A stretch of 64,000 bases of DNA from a virus, in the IMG/VR virus record IMGVR_UViG_3300046782_000129, positions 1 through 64,000 of that record; one strand, 5' to 3'. The position numbers were made by a program, and so were the translations under genes. Positions 3,525 to 56,423 of this stretch are shown piece after piece. The stretch's first letter is position 1; each line of letters starts with the position of its first letter. The notes beneath the pieces are model-generated. The model had not been told where the DNA came from and ran no database searches. It worked only from the letters and a program-made list of their open reading frames with translations.

Positions 3525-4240
3525 TCTCCTGCATTCTGCCGACGAAGGATCGAGCAGCCTTCATCCCGCAGGCCATCAGAAGCTACCAGACGCAGACGTA
3601 TCCCTACCGGGAACTGGTGATCGTAGACAACGGGAACGACCACACCGAGTCGATGATTCCCTTTGCTACGGATCCCACCATTCGATATGCCCGCGTGGCA
3701 GGCCGATTGACCACCGGAGACATGCGAAACCTGTGTGCGAAGCACTCGTACGGACAGATCATCTGTCATTTTGACTCGGATGACTGGAGTGCGCCGGGAC
3801 GTGTGACAGAACAGGTCACACAGTTGGGGGAGTTCGGCGTGGTGACTGGCTATCACTCGATGTTGTTCTATGACATCCGAGATGGCAAAAGCTACCTGTG
3901 GCACATGCCGCATTCACCCGTGCGCTACATATTGGGGACATCGCTGTGTTACCGTCGAGAGTGGTGGCGTACCCACCGGTTCGAATCGTTGCGTGTGGGA
4001 GAAGACTTGCGGTTCTATCAACGAGCCTGCCGAGAGGCCAGACGGTTGACCTTCTCGGCTCCCGCAGGCCATCAGATGGTGGCCCGCGTGCATGATCATC
4101 AGACGTGTCGGAAGTCTCTCACCCCGATGAGTTATACTCCGATGCCACCCACGGCGTTACCCTCGGGATTCCCATGCGATTTAACATCTGCTCCAATCTC
4201 AATAACGGTGTTGGACTCCAGCGGGACTACGAACTGCTGA
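3467..4240 (+). CDS. Glycosyltransferase, GT-A fold (family 2-like)
   Basis: A 257-residue enzyme expected to move a sugar from a nucleotide sugar to an acceptor. The start of a family 2 domain is clear (LVSCILPTKDR near residue 16, then LVIVDNGND). The metal-binding acidic motif is HFDSDDW near residue 102. I chose ATG 3467 because the domain begins just after it; ATG 3344 would overlap most of the previous gene. It opens a four-gene sugar/methyl cassette in the virion operon, so decoration of virion proteins or phage DNA is plausible. The acceptor is unknown. Confidence 0.8.
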   Translation: MVSPRSTPPPTALPAKLPLVSCILPTKDRAAFIPQAIRSYQTQTYPYRELVIVDNGNDHTESMIPFATDPTIRYARVAGRLTTGDMRNLCAKHSYGQIICHFDSDDWSAPGRVTEQVTQLGEFGVVTGYHSMLFYDIRDGKSYLWHMPHSPVRYILGTSLCYRREWWRTHRFESLRVGEDLRFYQRACREARRLTFSAPAGHQMVARVHDHQTCRKSLTPMSYTPMPPTALPSGFPCDLTSAPISITVLDSSGTTNC

Positions 4241-5040
4241 GACACCAGTTAGAGAAGCGTGGCCATCAGGTGTATGGAGTGCAGTTCAATGCCACTCCGG
4301 TGGTGGCTCCACGAGCAGATGTCAATATTTTCGTGGAAGTGGTGACGCCGTTCGTGTTTGCTGCCGCTCCCAAGCAATGGGTTATCCCCCATCCTGAGTG
4401 GTGGTTTGCTCAGTGGGACAAGTACCCCTATGACTTGGTGCTAGCGAAGACCAGAGACTGCGAACGGATTTTTAGAGCGAAGGTTGGGGACAAATGCCGT
4501 TATATTGGGTGGCTGGCAAGGGATTTGTATCGTCCGGAGATTCCACGGCAACGGAAATTCCTGCATGTCTGTGGGAAGTCACAGTTCAAGAACACGCCTG
4601 CGGTTATTGTGGGATGCCAGCATGCTGGTGTGCCCCTGACTGTGATCGGGACACACGCGGGCACCCGCCGTCACGTCTCCGATCCGGAGCTAGTCAACTT
4701 GATGAACACCCATTTTTGTCAGGTGATGCCTTCCGCGTATGAAGGGTACGGCCATGTGTTGCATGAGGCGTTGGGGGCGGGACAGATCCTCATTACCACC
4801 AATGCTCCGCCGATGAATGAGTTGACGCCCTCCATCTTGTTGCCGAGTGAAAGCACGTCGAAGTACCATGAAGGCACGTTGCACAAGGTGTCGCCACTCA
4901 GTGTGTCGAAGGCCGTCAAGCATGTGATGGCGTTGCCACCCACGTCGGTGCAACGGTATCGTGACGAGGGCCGCGCACAGTTTCAGCAAGATCAGGTGGC
5001 GTTTGAGCAGGCGTTGGACGAGTTGTTGGGACCCGGCTAA
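4174..5040 (+). CDS. Glycosyltransferase, GT-B fold (GT1/GT4-like)
   Basis: A 288-residue protein from ATG 4174; a GTG at 4105 is possible but would extend further into the previous gene. The C-terminal half carries the GT4-type signature SAYEGYGHVLHEALGAG, with the donor-binding E-x7-E spacing, followed by ITTNAPPMNEL. The N-terminal Rossmann-like half starts with an MRFNICSNLNNG strand and loop. It overlaps the methyltransferase gene by one base (TAATG). It probably acts with the neighbouring glycosyltransferases on one glycan. Confidence 0.8.
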   Translation: MRFNICSNLNNGVGLQRDYELLRHQLEKRGHQVYGVQFNATPVVAPRADVNIFVEVVTPFVFAAAPKQWVIPHPEWWFAQWDKYPYDLVLAKTRDCERIFRAKVGDKCRYIGWLARDLYRPEIPRQRKFLHVCGKSQFKNTPAVIVGCQHAGVPLTVIGTHAGTRRHVSDPELVNLMNTHFCQVMPSAYEGYGHVLHEALGAGQILITTNAPPMNELTPSILLPSESTSKYHEGTLHKVSPLSVSKAVKHVMALPPTSVQRYRDEGRAQFQQDQVAFEQALDELLGPG

Positions 5041-49093: not shown

Positions 49094-49333
49094 ATGGCTG
49101 AGACACCAGAACAACCCACGGATCCCACGTCCCCACCGGAAACGACTCCACCGGCCCATCCCGATCACGAACTACCGGGTGGCCCCGGCAGACCGGGTGG
49201 AAGTCCCGGACGTCCGGGTGGACCTATCGGACCCGGAGGCCCCGGTGGACCGGCTGGTCCCGGTGGTCCCGGTGGTGGTCCCGTCAGGCCCGGAGACAAA
49301 CCGGAACCCGGACGGCCACAGCCGAAGCGGTAA
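49094..49333 (+). CDS. Small Gly-Pro-rich (collagen-like) protein
   Basis: A 79-residue protein with an acidic Pro/Thr start and a Gly-Pro-Gly repeat region (residues about 28-65), too short and too Gly-rich for a stable collagen helix by itself. It has AAAAGGAG before ATG 49094, its own promoter and a strong terminator, so it is a self-contained unit. Function unknown. Confidence 0.65.
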   Translation: MAETPEQPTDPTSPPETTPPAHPDHELPGGPGRPGGSPGRPGGPIGPGGPGGPAGPGGPGGGPVRPGDKPEPGRPQPKR

Positions 49334-49394: not shown

Positions 49395-49607
49395 GTGGGC
49401 AAGGAAGATCGTCAGTCGGGGATTGTCGTCCGAGTGTTCCCGGACAAAGGCTTTGGCTTCATCCGGGATCAGAAGGGCACAGAATACTTTTTCCATCGAA
49501 CCGCATGTCGTGAGTGGGACACCCTGAAGATGCACCAGTCAGTGACGTTCATGGTGCAAGACAACCCCAAGGGACCACGCGCCGAAGACATTGCGGCTTT
49601 GTCGTAG
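49395..49607 (+). CDS. Cold-shock-domain protein
   Basis: A 70-residue protein from GTG 49395. The single OB-fold has the RNP1 motif KGFGFI near residue 18 and the RNP2-like EYFFHRTA near 30, as in CspA. It should bind single-stranded RNA/DNA and may act as an RNA chaperone or antiterminator for phage transcripts. It is separated from the previous gene by a terminator. Confidence 0.88.
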   Translation: MGKEDRQSGIVVRVFPDKGFGFIRDQKGTEYFFHRTACREWDTLKMHQSVTFMVQDNPKGPRAEDIAALS

Positions 49608-49620
49608 GAAAACACCCCAC

Positions 49621-49649
49621 TTGACAAACGTTTGACAAGTGTGTTAAGT
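49621..49649 (+). promoter_or_regulatory. Sigma70-like promoter for PEP-CTERM gene 1
   Basis: TTGACA 49621-49626, 17-nt spacer, TTAAGT 49644-49649. A second TTGACA lies at 49632, and CAAACGTTTG (49625-49634) is a perfect palindrome over the -35. Confidence 0.7.
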
Positions 49650-49675
49650 TAGGGGTTCGGTCGTCGTCAAGTAGT

Positions 49676-49685
49676 TGTCATGACA
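49676..49685 (+). promoter_or_regulatory. Palindrome in the leader of PEP-CTERM gene 1
   Basis: TGTCATGACA, a perfect 10-bp palindrome about 20 nt after the predicted start of transcription. It may be a repressor site. Confidence 0.35.
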
Positions 49686-49722
49686 CTCGGGTACTATTGT
49701 CGGCAATAGGAGGAAGTTCACA

Positions 49723-50397
49723 ATGAAGCAGTTCAAGACTCTCACTCTCGCAGTCGCACTTCTCGCGGTCCCCGCACTCGCGTCGGCCAGCACCATTCTC
49801 CAGTTCACGGAGTCTGGTGGGTTCAACACGCCGTTCACGATTACCGGGAATGGAGCCACGGCCACCATCAGTGGCAACAAGACCGTCAGCGTCACCATCG
49901 ACCCGGCGTTCTGTGCCGTGGCCGGTTGTGGTGGGATCCCGACCACGGATACCTACGTGCTGAACTTGGTGGCCAACAGCATCGGGACCGCTCAGGTCGT
50001 CGGTACGTCATTCAGTGAGGCGTTCTCTGGGACGTTCTCGTTCACCGGCACGGGTGCTCACGCTGGTCTGAACTTGCTGACGGTTAATTTCACCGACCTG
50101 CTTCAGGGCAGCATCGGCGGAACGAACCCGACGCTCCAGTCCAGTCAGCCGCCTGACTCGTTCTCGGGCACGTCGGCCATCTTCGGCACGCTCAATCCGC
50201 CGCGTGGGTTCAGCTTCGGGTTCTCGAATTTGAACCCGGCGTTGGGCGTCAACGGTACGGCAGTCCGCAGCGGTGTTGGTGACCTCGCAGGCACCATCAA
50301 CGCGACGGCCTCCACGGTTCCGGAGCCGACGTCGATGGTGTTGCTCGGCAGCGGGCTGGCACTCTTCGCACGTAAGCTGAAGGCCCGCAAGCAGTAA
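49723..50397 (+). CDS. PEP-CTERM sorting-domain protein 1
   Basis: A 224-residue secreted protein. A signal peptide (KQFKTLTLAVALLAVPALASA, cleavage near residue 22) leads to a Ser/Thr/Gly-rich beta body with one Cys pair. The C-terminal 26 residues are VPEP, a hydrophobic stretch and an Arg/Lys end (FARKLKARKQ): the PEP-CTERM tail that exosortase (XrtA/EpsH) cuts in Gram-negative biofilm formers. No exosortase is encoded here, so host machinery would process it. Own promoter and terminator make it look like a moron. Confidence 0.9.
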   Translation: MKQFKTLTLAVALLAVPALASASTILQFTESGGFNTPFTITGNGATATISGNKTVSVTIDPAFCAVAGCGGIPTTDTYVLNLVANSIGTAQVVGTSFSEAFSGTFSFTGTGAHAGLNLLTVNFTDLLQGSIGGTNPTLQSSQPPDSFSGTSAIFGTLNPPRGFSFGFSNLNPALGVNGTAVRSGVGDLAGTINATASTVPEPTSMVLLGSGLALFARKLKARKQ

Positions 50398-50412
50398 GTC
50401 TCCCCAGCAAGG

Positions 50413-50456
50413 CCCACGCAGTGGCAGACCTCGTTCGAAGGGCACCACTGCGTGGG
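50413..50456 (+). terminator. Terminator after PEP-CTERM gene 1
   Basis: A perfect 12-bp stem (CCCACGCAGTGG with CCACTGCGTGGG) and a 20-nt loop, followed by ATTTCTCT; the U-run is weak but the stem is strong. Confidence 0.6.
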
Positions 50457-50523: not shown

Positions 50524-50823
50524 ATGCCCAATTGCCATGATTGCCAGTTCTGGAAGAAAGATTGGGGTATCTGGGCGCACAACCGATGGACACGAGCGTA
50601 TTCCGAGAGAGGCTGGTGTACGTATCGTAAATTGGATCCACCCCTAGAGATGTCAGGCACGGCGATCTTCTGCCACTTTTATCAAGCCCTTCCAGAAAAA
50701 CCTGATGTCTTCTATGCCCCCGGTCAATCGCAAGCTAGTCATCCAAGCGATGCTCAATGCATTGACCGCGCCCACCAAACCCCTGACTCAGTGGGAAGAG
50801 AAATTCTTGGAAAGCATCGGTGA
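50524..50823 (+). CDS. Small cysteine protein
   Basis: A 99-residue protein starting about 13 nt after the predicted -10, so nearly leaderless. Four cysteines near the N-terminal half (C-x2-C, then two more by residue 50) suggest a metal site. The last third overlaps the next gene in another frame and looks unstructured. Not recognised. Confidence 0.45.
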   Translation: MPNCHDCQFWKKDWGIWAHNRWTRAYSERGWCTYRKLDPPLEMSGTAIFCHFYQALPEKPDVFYAPGQSQASHPSDAQCIDRAHQTPDSVGREILGKHR

Positions 50824-50902
50824 AGATTTCGATGCCAAAGGTACGCTGTCAGAGAAGCAATTCGCGGTGCTAGACAGGATTTACAACGCGAAGGCGAATT
50901 GA
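50705..50902 (+). CDS. Small helical phage protein
   Basis: A 65-residue protein (ATG 50705 or 50714) overlapping the previous gene. The sequence LTQWEEKFLESIGEDFDAKGTLSEKQFAVLDRIY has the pattern of a short helical unit found in phage hypothetical proteins. Function unknown. Confidence 0.55.
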   Translation: MSSMPPVNRKLVIQAMLNALTAPTKPLTQWEEKFLESIGEDFDAKGTLSEKQFAVLDRIYNAKAN

Positions 50903-51441: not shown

Positions 51442-51758
51442 GCACTGCACGGTGTCAACTGTGCGGGTCGTCAGAGTCCGCGTGGCGGATCAACGAAGCC
51501 AACATCAACGTTGGAGAACTCCGGAACTACTCGATTCAAGCGTGCGAACGATGCACGGATGTTCTGTCCGAAGCCATCGTGACTGCGTGTGAGTCGTTGA
51601 CAAGGGTGATGGATCATGGCGGGCAGACCACCGTTCGAACGACTGAGGGCGTTGGGCGAAGCACGGTTCCAGAAGATTCTGAATCATCTGATGCAAGGGA
51701 AGCCAGCGATGACGCTGGCCCGAGAGATTCAGCAACCTTTGCCCGTGGGTTGGGGTGA
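51438..51758 (+). CDS. Zinc-ribbon protein
   Basis: A 106-residue protein with two C-x2-C pairs (CQLCG near residue 6 and CERCT near 37), forming a zinc ribbon in the first 45 residues. The rest is acidic and disordered and overlaps the terminase small subunit gene by 143 bp. It may bind DNA or the packaging complex. Confidence 0.5.
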   Translation: MSTARCQLCGSSESAWRINEANINVGELRNYSIQACERCTDVLSEAIVTACESLTRVMDHGGQTTVRTTEGVGRSTVPEDSESSDAREASDDAGPRDSATFARGLG

Positions 51759-52236
51759 GTTCCAAGACGTCGCAGAGAAGACCCTCACTCAGCAACTGAA
51801 CCGTCTCCGTATGGAGGCGGCAGAGGGAGCCTTTGGTCCAGAGATGGCCAAGCAGATCGTGGCCGTCGCTGCCCAACCGAGTAAAGTGCTCGGACATATC
51901 TCCGTCAGTGTCCTCCAGCGCATGGAGGCGTTGTCCGACATCCAGCAGCAACGAGTCCTCACCCTTGTAGAGAAGGAGCAGGTAGGGAAGTTCGTCCACC
52001 CGGCCACCAACGAAGTCATCCTGACCTATCGGCAACTTCTGCTCGATTTACAGAAGATTCGCTTTGATTTGGGACTCGATGACTTCAAGGGACCGGTGAC
52101 TTCTACCGCGATGCGCGGGGCGACCCAGCAGGTCTCCCTTCCTGACGGAACAAATATTCAGCGGCAGGTCTTCGAAGCGGTCAGTACGGTCGAGCAAATC
52201 TTTGACGCCCGGAAGATTCCTCTGCCGGGGCGATGA
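51616..52236 (+). CDS. Terminase small subunit (probable)
   Basis: A 206-residue protein just before the large subunit region. The basic start MAGRPPFERLRALGE is typical of small terminases. A helical middle (residues 60-150) could form the oligomeric ring, and a C-terminal unit (QQVSLPDGTNIQRQVFEAV) could contact the large subunit. It would recognise the packaging site. Its stop directly abuts the 56-bp repeat copy B. Confidence 0.6.
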   Translation: MAGRPPFERLRALGEARFQKILNHLMQGKPAMTLAREIQQPLPVGWGEFQDVAEKTLTQQLNRLRMEAAEGAFGPEMAKQIVAVAAQPSKVLGHISVSVLQRMEALSDIQQQRVLTLVEKEQVGKFVHPATNEVILTYRQLLLDLQKIRFDLGLDDFKGPVTSTAMRGATQQVSLPDGTNIQRQVFEAVSTVEQIFDARKIPLPGR

Positions 52237-52294: not shown

Positions 52295-52519
52295 ATGTTG
52301 ATTTTCAAGGAAGAGAAAAAACTACCGAAAGTATTGGAAATTGTGCTGGTTTGCCCGGAGTGCTTGCACGTGTGGCATGCCGCGTCCATCGTGCTCGGTA
52401 CGTGGTGGGCGGGACCACCGGAAGCGACCGCCAAACAGTGTTACTGTCCGAAGTGCGAGACGCCGCCACCGATGCGTATCCACAAGATTCGTCATGTTGA
52501 CTTTCAAACGGGGAGATAA
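52295..52519 (+). CDS. Small zinc-ribbon protein in the terminase region
   Basis: A 74-residue protein from ATG 52295; the frame is open upstream but that part is only repeat DNA. Two C-x2-C pairs (LVCPECLHVWH and YCPKCETPP) form a zinc ribbon. It overlaps the terminase large subunit by 26 bp, suggesting a helper role in packaging or in transcription of late genes. Confidence 0.6.
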   Translation: MLIFKEEKKLPKVLEIVLVCPECLHVWHAASIVLGTWWAGPPEATAKQCYCPKCETPPPMRIHKIRHVDFQTGR

Positions 52520-54500
52520 CGGCAAGAGTCTGGTCGCCCACAAGACCAGCCAAGAACATCTGGATGTGGTGAACGAGCGTGCCCACCTGTACCTCCGCCA
52601 GTACCTTGGCCACCATCACGCCGAGAAGATTTGGTTCGCGGGCCAGAAGATCCTTGACCTCAACGAGCGGGCCATGTTCTACGCTCAGATGGTCGTCCAC
52701 GTCGAAGAAGAACTCCGGGGCCAGTCCTCCACGGTTATCCAAGACTTCGCCCAGTATAAGTGGAAGCCGGTGGGCATCAAGGAGTTCATCTGCTCCACGC
52801 ATTACCTGAATAAGCAGGCGGAGATTTATCCCGGTGTGCTGGAAGCTGCCGAGGAGTTGAACAACGGCACGTACGTGGAAGCCGTCATGACCGGAGGTAT
52901 CGGGTCAGGCAAGACCACGCTGGCTCTGTACACGAACGCCTATCAGTTGTATCTGCTGTCCTGCATGAGAAGTCCGCACAAGCAGTTCGGGCTGGACCCG
53001 TCATCTGAAATCATGTTGATTTTTCAGTCGATGACCATGCAGTTGGCCAGAGGCGTGGACTATCAACGGTTCCGGAACATGATCGAGGGCAGTCCCTACT
53101 TCCTGAAGCACTACCCCTTCCAGCGAGACTTGCAGAGCCGGTTGGTGTTCCCGAACCGCGTGGAGGTCGTGCCGGTCTCAGGCTCAGAGACTGCCGCCAT
53201 CGGCCAGAACGTCATGGGCGGATTGATTGACGAGTTGAACTACATGGCCGTGGTTGAGAAGTCGCGGGTGGCCGTGGACCGAGGCACTTACGACCAAGCC
53301 ATTCTCCTCTACAACAGCATCGCCAGACGCCGGAAGAGCCGTTTCATGGAGAACGGCAAGCTCCCCGGCATTCTCTGTCTGGTGTCCAGTAAGAAGTACC
53401 CCGGCCAGTTCACGGACCAGAAGGTGGCCGAGGCAGAGCGGGACCCCAGCATCTTCGTCTACGACCGCCGCGTCTGGGACATCAAGCCGGATGACTTCGG
53501 GAATCAAGGATGGTTCTCGGTCTTCGCAGGCGACCTGACGCGCAAGCCACGCATCATGGACGAAGACGATGAGGTGGCCGACGAGGATCGTCCGTTGGTG
53601 GTGGCCGTCCCCGAAGAGTTCAGAACCGAGTTCGAAAAGGATGTCATCAATGCGCTGAGAGAAATTGCAGGCGTGAGCACACTGGCCCGCCACCCCTTCT
53701 TCTTGGAGGTGGACAAGGTGCATCACTCCTTCATGGAACGAGAGTCGATCTTCAGCCAGCCTGTGGTGGACTTCGTGAACCAGCGGCTGACGCTCTTGAA
53801 ACGCAACTTCTGGAACCCCGAGGTGCCGAGGTTCGCGCATTGTGACTTAGCCCTCTCCGGAGATAGTGCAGGCTTAGCCATCGGCACGGTTACGAACTTC
53901 AAGAACGTGTCCAGCGACCAAGGCCAGCCCGCCTACATGCCGAACATCTGGATCGATGGGGTGTTGGAGGTCCGTCCCCCGAAGAACTGTGAAATCCTTC
54001 TGAGCAAGATCCGAGAGGTCATCATCGTCCTGAAGAAGATGGGCCTGAACATCATCTGGGTGACGTTCGATCAATTTCAGTCGAGCGACAGTCAACAGAT
54101 TCTCAGGCAGCAGGGATTGATCACGGGCCACCAGTCGATGGATGAAGTGCCGTGCAGGCCCTATGATTTCTTGAAGACTGCCGTGTATGAAGGCCGGTTG
54201 AACGCCCCGATCATGCCGAAGCTTCAGCGAGAGATGCTGATGTTGGAGAAGGATACGAAGCACGGGCGAGTGGACCACCCACCGGGCGGGAGCAAGGACT
54301 GCGCGGATGCGTTGGCGGGTGTGGCCTTCGGCCTGACTATGCGACGGGAACTGTGGGGCCTGTATCGGATCCCGACCCTCATGATCCCCCAGAGCGTCTA
54401 CGCCAGCGTGGATAAGCTCAAGCCGAAGGAAGACCAGCCAGACTACCAGCCCGAGTTGAGTCTGGTGGCGACGGAGCGAGGTCTTACGACCCCGATGTAA
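52494..54500 (+). CDS. Terminase large subunit
   Basis: A 668-residue packaging motor from ATG 52494 (upstream in-frame codons overlap the zinc-ribbon gene). The ATPase half has Walker A GGIGSGKTT near residue 134 and Walker B LIDEL near 243. The nuclease half has acidic residues in FAHCDLALSGDSAG near 448, WVTFDQFQS near 522 and SKDCADALAG near 602, the RNase H-like set. It pumps DNA into the prohead and cuts the concatemer. Confidence 0.92.
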   Translation: MLTFKRGDNGKSLVAHKTSQEHLDVVNERAHLYLRQYLGHHHAEKIWFAGQKILDLNERAMFYAQMVVHVEEELRGQSSTVIQDFAQYKWKPVGIKEFICSTHYLNKQAEIYPGVLEAAEELNNGTYVEAVMTGGIGSGKTTLALYTNAYQLYLLSCMRSPHKQFGLDPSSEIMLIFQSMTMQLARGVDYQRFRNMIEGSPYFLKHYPFQRDLQSRLVFPNRVEVVPVSGSETAAIGQNVMGGLIDELNYMAVVEKSRVAVDRGTYDQAILLYNSIARRRKSRFMENGKLPGILCLVSSKKYPGQFTDQKVAEAERDPSIFVYDRRVWDIKPDDFGNQGWFSVFAGDLTRKPRIMDEDDEVADEDRPLVVAVPEEFRTEFEKDVINALREIAGVSTLARHPFFLEVDKVHHSFMERESIFSQPVVDFVNQRLTLLKRNFWNPEVPRFAHCDLALSGDSAGLAIGTVTNFKNVSSDQGQPAYMPNIWIDGVLEVRPPKNCEILLSKIREVIIVLKKMGLNIIWVTFDQFQSSDSQQILRQQGLITGHQSMDEVPCRPYDFLKTAVYEGRLNAPIMPKLQREMLMLEKDTKHGRVDHPPGGSKDCADALAGVAFGLTMRRELWGLYRIPTLMIPQSVYASVDKLKPKEDQPDYQPELSLVATERGLTTPM

Positions 54501-55528: not shown

Positions 55529-55558
55529 TTGACAAACCATTGGGGGGCGTGGTAGTAT
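55529..55558 (+). promoter_or_regulatory. Sigma70-like promoter for PEP-CTERM gene 2
   Basis: TTGACA 55529-55534, 18-nt spacer, TAGTAT 55553-55558. Confidence 0.75.
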
Positions 55559-55619: not shown

Positions 55620-56423
55620 ATGAAGAAGACTCTCCAGTTCGTTCTTGCAGTGGCTATGGTAGGGATCTTCGCAGCGTCGGCATCGGCGGCGTCCATCACG
55701 TTCGTGGGTTCATCGGGCACCTTGGCAGCAGCCACACGTATCACCGATCTTGGTGGTGGCCTGCTGCGGATCGAGTTGGGCAACTTCGGGAGCGCAGCGG
55801 TGATCCCGGTGGATGTGCTGACCGGCGTGTTTTTCGACGGGAACAACGCGGTGTTGTCCAGCTTGGGCAACGTCTCAGCGATCACGTCGGCCACGACGAC
55901 CATCACGAATCCGAATAGTTGTGGCGCAGGCGCGGCAGCGTGCCCGAGTGGAGCCAACCTGAATGTCGGTGGCGAGTTCGCATCGGCGGCGAATCCGCTG
56001 GGCGTCTACGACTTCGGCATCAGTAGCTCGGGACTCGGCATTTTCGGGAACGCCAATTTCCTTGGCCCCGATTTGTCCGACCCGGTTGCTGTCAACGGCC
56101 TGAACTTCGGCATGGTCAGCATCCCGAACGGCATTTCGGGTGGGGCCAATCCGGCAGTCTTGGCTGCTCCGCTGCTCCGTGGCGTCGTGACGTTCACGTT
56201 GCAGGGGCAAGTCGGGTTCAATCCGGCGACGGGGATCACCGGCGTTCGCTTCCAGTATGGGACGGCCCTGACGGATGCGAACTTCATCGGTACTCCGCTG
56301 CCTCCGGGTGTTCCAACGCCGTTCGACGTTGGTCCGACAGCGGTGCCGGAACCGGCATCGATGATGCTTCTCGGTAGCGGGCTACTCGCTGGTGCCCGTT
56401 ACGCCCGTCGTCGCAAGAAGTAA
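55620..56423 (+). CDS. PEP-CTERM sorting-domain protein 2
   Basis: A 267-residue secreted protein. The signal peptide ends near residue 24 (AVAMVGIFAASASAA). The body is Gly/Asn/Ser-rich with two cysteines and looks like a beta-sandwich. The last 26 residues are VPEP, then ASMMLLGSGLLAGA and a basic YARRRKK end: a full PEP-CTERM tail. It is not close in sequence to protein 1 outside the two sorting ends. Own promoter, palindrome and terminator suggest an independent moron, processed by host exosortase. Confidence 0.9.
   Translation: MKKTLQFVLAVAMVGIFAASASAASITFVGSSGTLAAATRITDLGGGLLRIELGNFGSAAVIPVDVLTGVFFDGNNAVLSSLGNVSAITSATTTITNPNSCGAGAAACPSGANLNVGGEFASAANPLGVYDFGISSSGLGIFGNANFLGPDLSDPVAVNGLNFGMVSIPNGISGGANPAVLAAPLLRGVVTFTLQGQVGFNPATGITGVRFQYGTALTDANFIGTPLPPGVPTPFDVGPTAVPEPASMMLLGSGLLAGARYARRRKK

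Follow-up and report, generated by a model that had tools for sequence, protein, structure and literature searches.

A phage gene for a PEP-CTERM protein between replication and terminase genes

The window analysed here, a 64,000-base stretch of a virus record of 117,534 bases, carries a gene, PEP1, whose predicted product has the signal peptide, beta-strand body and sorting tail of a bacterial exosortase substrate. We are confident that PEP1 is a moron for a surface protein sorted by the host, with the proviso that the host exosortase is assumed because the host is unknown. The fuller reading, in which the product uses this exosortase and alters the cell surface or matrix, is the best explanation overall and in our judgement the probable one, with the host unidentified and no expression or localisation data available.

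The carrier is a large tailed phage. Genes for TerL, tape measure, tail fibre and minor-head proteins, a DnaB-like helicase and a UvsX-like protein are present in its record, and the placement of PEP1 between the replication genes (DnaB-like, UvsX-like) and TerL, as given in the earlier note, was confirmed. By TerL, the nearest isolates are the Stenotrophomonas Delepquintavirus phages (Summit, DLP_5), and the gene preceding TerL is also related to its counterpart there; unlike the window phage, Summit has no PEP-CTERM gene annotated near its terminase. All sequences are metagenomic, and genes were called with a home-made gene caller.

51616..52236, + strand: probable TerS, immediately 5' of TerL; 34% to the gene that precedes TerL in Summit; function inferred from position
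52494..54500, + strand: TerL, large terminase subunit; phrog_2; 54.7% identity to Stenotrophomonas phage Summit TerL

The absence of an exosortase gene, previously claimed, holds for the whole 117.5-kb record and for 34 other virus records, and a search of the phage record for a tyrosine integrase found none; lacking both, the phage looks lytic. Beyond the window, at 68386-71613 of the record (L006 5386-8613), lies a gene for a large tail-fibre protein, for which many collagen-like tail-fibre matches were obtained.

The PEP1 protein and its transcription unit

The PEP1 unit begins with a -35 element at 49621 and ends at 50456, the base of a stem, which is exactly the interval delimited in the earlier note. 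It comprises the following features.

49621..49650, + strand: PEP1 promoter, TTGACA, 18 nt, TAAGTT; member of the TTGACAAA..TGTG phage promoter class, matrix score 19.2
49694..49709, + strand: leader hairpin CTATTG-TCGG-CAATAG, read from sequence, preceding an AGGAGG ribosome-binding site (49708-49713)
49723..50397, + strand: PEP1, 224 aa, ATG start; signal peptide, beta body and PEP-CTERM tail, supported by domain models, a structure model and homologs
50317..50394, + strand: PEP1 sorting tail, VPEP, hydrophobic stretch and basic end; PF07589 and TIGR02595 above cut-off
50413..50456, + strand: 12-bp perfect stem-loop closing the PEP1 cassette, terminator-like; sole such stem in 64 kb

The proposed architecture of a secreted exosortase substrate was recovered at these coordinates. 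Failure to match PEP-CTERM models had been set beforehand as grounds for refutation, and the tail (VPEPTSMVLLGSGLALFARKLKARKQ) scores above both the Pfam and the TIGRFAM cut-offs (PF07589, 23.1 bits against 20.7; TIGR02595, 20.1 bits against 16), and it reached 27 bits when the record was scanned separately. The signal peptide, MKQFKTLTLAVALLAVPALASA, and a cleavage site before STILQ were read from the sequence by eye. Sequence reading and the structural model agree that there is no other membrane segment between the signal peptide and the tail. Our AlphaFold2 model (mean pLDDT 81.8) predicts a body composed mostly of beta-strand, most of it above 90, with helices only at the two ends apart from short ones within the body. 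Membership of the FxDxF family was not met (NF038126, 30.1 bits, cut-off 50). Assignment to a known fold was tried and abandoned: a PDB search with a first, poor model (pLDDT 63.7) came back empty, the better model gave no PDB or viral match at E ≤ 0.001, and the PEP1 family profile matched no PDB sequence. The body is confidently modelled as an all-beta fold without a known match.

Scored with a weight matrix derived from 14 other intergenic promoters of the phage, the promoter TTGACAAAC at 49621 ranks 15 among 63,960 plus-strand positions. It belongs to a class of 14-16 near-identical intergenic sites (30585-63173, + strand) that occur only in the replication half of the genome, with the consensus TTGACAAAc/t, a spacing of 17-18 nt and often TGTG ahead of a -10 element like CATACT. 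Intergenic TTGACA is distributed accordingly: the 30-64 kb half has 17 occurrences on the plus strand and 2 on the minus strand, and the structural half has 1 on each. The proposal that PEP1 has its own promoter is supported by a phage-class site, though its -10 element (TAAGTT) is weak and was missed by a generic sigma-70 scan. The 12-bp stem was matched by none of 3000 shuffles (perfect 12-bp stem with a short loop) and has an RNA-fold z of -3.6; what stands of the terminator claim is a perfect stem, unique in 64 kb, while the T-run 3' of it is weak (ATTTCTCTCT). Both signals are known from sequence alone, as we have no transcript data. The leader palindrome exists where it had been reported, but it folds no better than shuffles (z = -0.02); it consequently carries no weight, and we ruled it out as a regulator. 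Control of PEP1 or PEP2, a second PEP-CTERM gene described below, by sigma-54 was likewise ruled out, since there is no site near either gene and matches across the window are at chance level.

The insertion site and its exchangeable cassettes

A TerL scan yielded 23 virus contigs, most with a TerL 80-84% identical to that of the window phage. Those long enough keep the gene order ParB-like, CSD, CxxC protein, g50714, TerS, TerL, and PEP1 lies between the second and third of these genes.

49395..49607, + strand: cold-shock-domain (CSD) gene, left neighbour of the site; PF00313, 45 bits; conserved in relatives
50524..50823, + strand: gene for a small CxxC protein, flanking the site on the right; seen in relatives' site sequences
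50714..50902, + strand: conserved small gene g50714, right anchor; 46-63% identical in relatives

The CxxC protein begins MPxCxxCxFWKKDWGIWAHNRWT..., and its gene was missed by our caller. The distance from CSD to g50714 is 278-286 bp in five relatives (L102, L103, L116, L117 and L121), representing the empty site, 1109 bp in the window phage and 2.7-3.7 kb in L107, L111 and L112. Each of the latter three has a PEP1 homolog (43-44% identical) at the same site, as does L108. By its position and predicted signals PEP1 is a classical moron, as had been suggested: an extra gene, with promoter and stem, between genes that adjoin in relatives. One further relative, L109, has an HNH/AP2-like ORF of homing-endonuclease type (3915-5011; type judged by eye) and no PEP-CTERM gene in the CSD-CxxC interval; the site is therefore a general insertion hot-spot.

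Several exchangeable PEP-CTERM cassettes occur at this locus, PEP1 among them. The window itself contains a second one, downstream of TerL.

55529..55558, + strand: PEP2 promoter, TTGACA, 18 nt, TAGTAT; leave-one-out matrix score 23.3
55620..56423, + strand: PEP2, second PEP-CTERM protein, XDD4 family, 267 aa; NF045504, TIGR02595

PEP2 meets membership of the XDD4 family (NF045504, 124.9 bits, cut-off 40) and matches TIGR02595 (21.7 bits, cut-off 16). It has bacterial kin and is 37-43% identical to a Pseudomonadota protein; it differs from other members of the family in being phage-carried, and a search for viral relatives found none. At least four further PEP-CTERM types occur around the terminase genes of relatives: a cistern-family protein adjoins PEP1 in L107 and L112 (117 and 111 bits, cut-off 60), and other PEP-CTERM genes lie immediately 3' of TerL (L109, L110, L114), between ParB-like and CSD (L116) or before CSD (L103). 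Significant similarity among the cassette types is essentially confined to the tail. Such swapping of bodies behind a kept tail is compatible with surface diversification (exclusion, receptor masking) or with an exosortase decoy, and fits either.

How cassettes are exchanged is suggested by L111 and L112. Their flanking sequences agree at about 98% identity to one side of the cassette position and at 88-94% to the other. The cistern cassette of L112 is missing from L111, which has two similar hairpins back to back at the corresponding position; together with the near-identical flanks, these paired hairpins suggest, by inference, that the cassette was gained or lost through recombination between hairpins. 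Downstream of the PEP-CTERM gene of L116 (from 3982), a 19-bp perfect stem is followed by TTTTTGATTTT, a predicted strong terminator closing that cassette.

Distribution of and constraint on the PEP1 family

A search of viral contigs, advised in the earlier note, found PEP1 homologs in 17 other virus records, giving a family of 18 with the window, some of them near-identical copies. The homologs span several unrelated phage lineages, and most have packaging or head genes as neighbours. In L003 and L012 the gene precedes a PHROG-9 terminase; in L022 and L023 it is flanked by a small putative TerS gene and a PHROG-979 terminase, and in L017 and L024 by portal and major head genes. The L005 copy follows a PHROG-264 major head gene, and that of L014 lies within the tail-fibre region. 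Searches of 50,697 phage records (tblastn) and of PHROGs gave no credible match for either PEP1 or PEP2, and a clade-specific alignment search revealed no new PEP1 members. A codon-restricted tail pattern gave 63 matches in viral contigs, and none of the 50 checked had a PEP-CTERM domain. Since the pattern is limited to a small set of codon choices and its ability to pick up known members was not demonstrated, this census indicates little more than that such tails are not abundant.

Beyond the tail, no convincing homolog of PEP1 was found in 398 Pseudomonadota genomes, although two weak matches from the bacterial search (L092, L100) extend into the body, and a pattern scan covering some 85,000 species, the only search to include other bacterial phyla, found no homolog of the body. 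Because both bacterial searches were limited, we call the body phage-specific only provisionally. The body evidently has a job, given that it is under purifying selection (dN 0.10 and dS 0.61 for L111/L112; dN 0.14 and dS 0.44 for L012/L013) and that its cysteine pair is kept in 12 of 13 homologs. The window copy stands apart from those of L107, L111 and L112 in the PEP1 tree despite their alike TerL, with moderate support (80/92, 87/98); we did not accept transfer between phage lineages on this basis, as a single origin is not ruled out.

Short proline/glycine-rich repeat proteins adjoin PEP1 or its homologs in several unrelated phages, and a functional link with PEP1 is possible.

49094-49333; L022 3832-4170; L023 6696-7157; L005 7454-7939: proline/glycine-rich repeat proteins, PDNSLPG-type in the other phages

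Ten PEP-CTERM matches were also seen in a metagenome-assembled genome labelled Asaia bogorensis (L021 / G010). To our knowledge such matches are unexpected for this genus, and the label or the binning may be wrong.

Sorting by the host and rival readings

PEP1 bears a surface tag and its phage lacks the machine that reads such tags, which makes it probable that the phage borrows the machine of the host and redecorates the infected cell. Transcription would rely on the class of sigma-70-type promoters that the phage itself has in its replication half, without a host-type sigma-54 site. The protein would then cross the inner membrane and be retained there by its tail, and the host exosortase would cleave it and pass the beta body to the cell surface or the exopolysaccharide layer. 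There the body may alter the surface layer, most likely either by making it harder for competing phages to adsorb, or for progeny to adsorb to debris, or by modifying the attachment of polysaccharide to the cell. We infer, and hold only tentatively, that the phage benefits chiefly through a change of surface or matrix with an effect on phage adsorption. The superinfection block and the biofilm or matrix change envisaged in the earlier note remain inference, and PADLOC gave no match to PEP1 as a defence system.

Other readings of the same data deserve consideration. PEP1 might instead aid the matrix, strengthening the binding of polysaccharide to infected cells or their surroundings so that progeny or kin are kept in the biofilm, with adsorption unaffected. 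PEP-CTERM proteins do bind EPS to cells in floc-formers (PMC9850573), and PEP1 homologs weakly match the model of the floc protein PepA; none does so above cut-off, however, and the gain for a phage without an integrase is less obvious, which leaves this an unlikely alternative. Somewhat less likely again, in our estimate, is that PEP1 serves to saturate the host exosortase with substrate, leaving the host's own PEP-CTERM proteins unsorted, with a loosening of matrix or flocs that frees progeny. Only the tail would matter here, in keeping with the tail-confined similarity of the cassettes, but a decoy needs no particular body, and the conservation of PEP1 bodies across unrelated phages, with purifying selection, speaks against a pure decoy.

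The genomic settings of PEP1 homologs count against host sorting: their position between portal and capsid genes, or beside capsid or terminase genes, in unrelated phages might mean that they are expressed late or serve in the virion in those phages, with PEP1 a structural or assembly protein that merely resembles a PEP-CTERM protein. Against this, the signal peptide and membrane tail direct PEP1 out of the cytoplasm, where heads assemble, the gene is missing from close relatives with the same backbone, and its own promoter lies in the replication half; we regard a virion role as very improbable. An assembly chimera of bacterial and phage DNA, raised in the earlier note as a possible refutation, would account for a gene of an otherwise bacterial kind. 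It is already refuted by synteny, as L107, L108, L111 and L112, from other assemblies, have the same gene order with a PEP1 homolog and conserved phage genes flank PEP1 on both sides, and we give it virtually no credence.

Sorting of PEP1 by a host exosortase can be set against what is known of bacterial systems. PEP-CTERM proteins occur together with genes for exosortase, the outer membrane and EPS, and a sigma-54 site often lies upstream of their genes in Proteobacteria (PMC1569441). PEP1 resembles these exosortase (EpsH/Xrt) substrates of Gram-negative bacteria in its signal peptide, PEP motif, hydrophobic stretch and basic end, and in having a body that resembles no known family, as is usual for such proteins (PMC1569441); it departs from them in being encoded by a phage whose genome lacks an exosortase and in standing under a phage promoter without the sigma-54 site. 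Overproduction of PepA converts soluble EPS to cell-bound EPS (PMC9850573), and exosortase loss in Nostoc abolishes polysaccharide adhesion and biofilm (PMC12188702). Just one of several host PEP-CTERM proteins tested in Aquincola altered flocs (PMC9850573), so a surface effect of PEP1 is not to be taken for granted.

PEP-CTERM sorting has so far been regarded as a bacterial biofilm or floc trait. Should our reading be true, a phage-borne, cassette-swapped substrate family not found in the searched bacterial genomes would place the exosortase among the host factors exploited by phages, offer a handle on the long-open question of PEP-CTERM body function and bear on phage encounters with flocs and biofilms in soil, sediment and wastewater. 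It is conceivable, though we consider it doubtful, that a lytic phage group keeps a hot-spot of exchangeable promoter-gene-hairpin units for exosortase-sorted proteins, one family being common to unrelated phages, and that, while infecting, these phages employ the host exosortase to remodel the cell coat for adsorption exclusion or matrix control.

Envelope proteins are encoded by the phage morons lom and bor of lambda. The cor gene of phi80 and N15 is a further such moron (PMC11436027). Like these, PEP1 is an accessory gene that lies between conserved phage genes, is equipped with a promoter and a terminator-like stem of its own, and has a product predicted to reach the envelope or surface; unlike them, it has a predicted delivery by the exosortase pathway rather than by lipoprotein or beta-barrel routes, its family is common to unrelated phages and its carrier has no tyrosine integrase. 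PEP-CTERM substrates and phage morons are each already known, whereas their combination, the cassette hot-spot and the cross-phage PEP1 family are new; we found no literature on phage PEP-CTERM genes as such, subscription journals and preprints being mostly not covered. The nearest precedent concerns hot-spring viruses, where TIGR03118 proteins with a putative exosortase tail appear among gene-transfer candidates (PMC11003980). That case involves another family and a single survey line, with no cassette, site or phage family described, and shares with PEP1 the presence of an exosortase-type tail in viral contigs.
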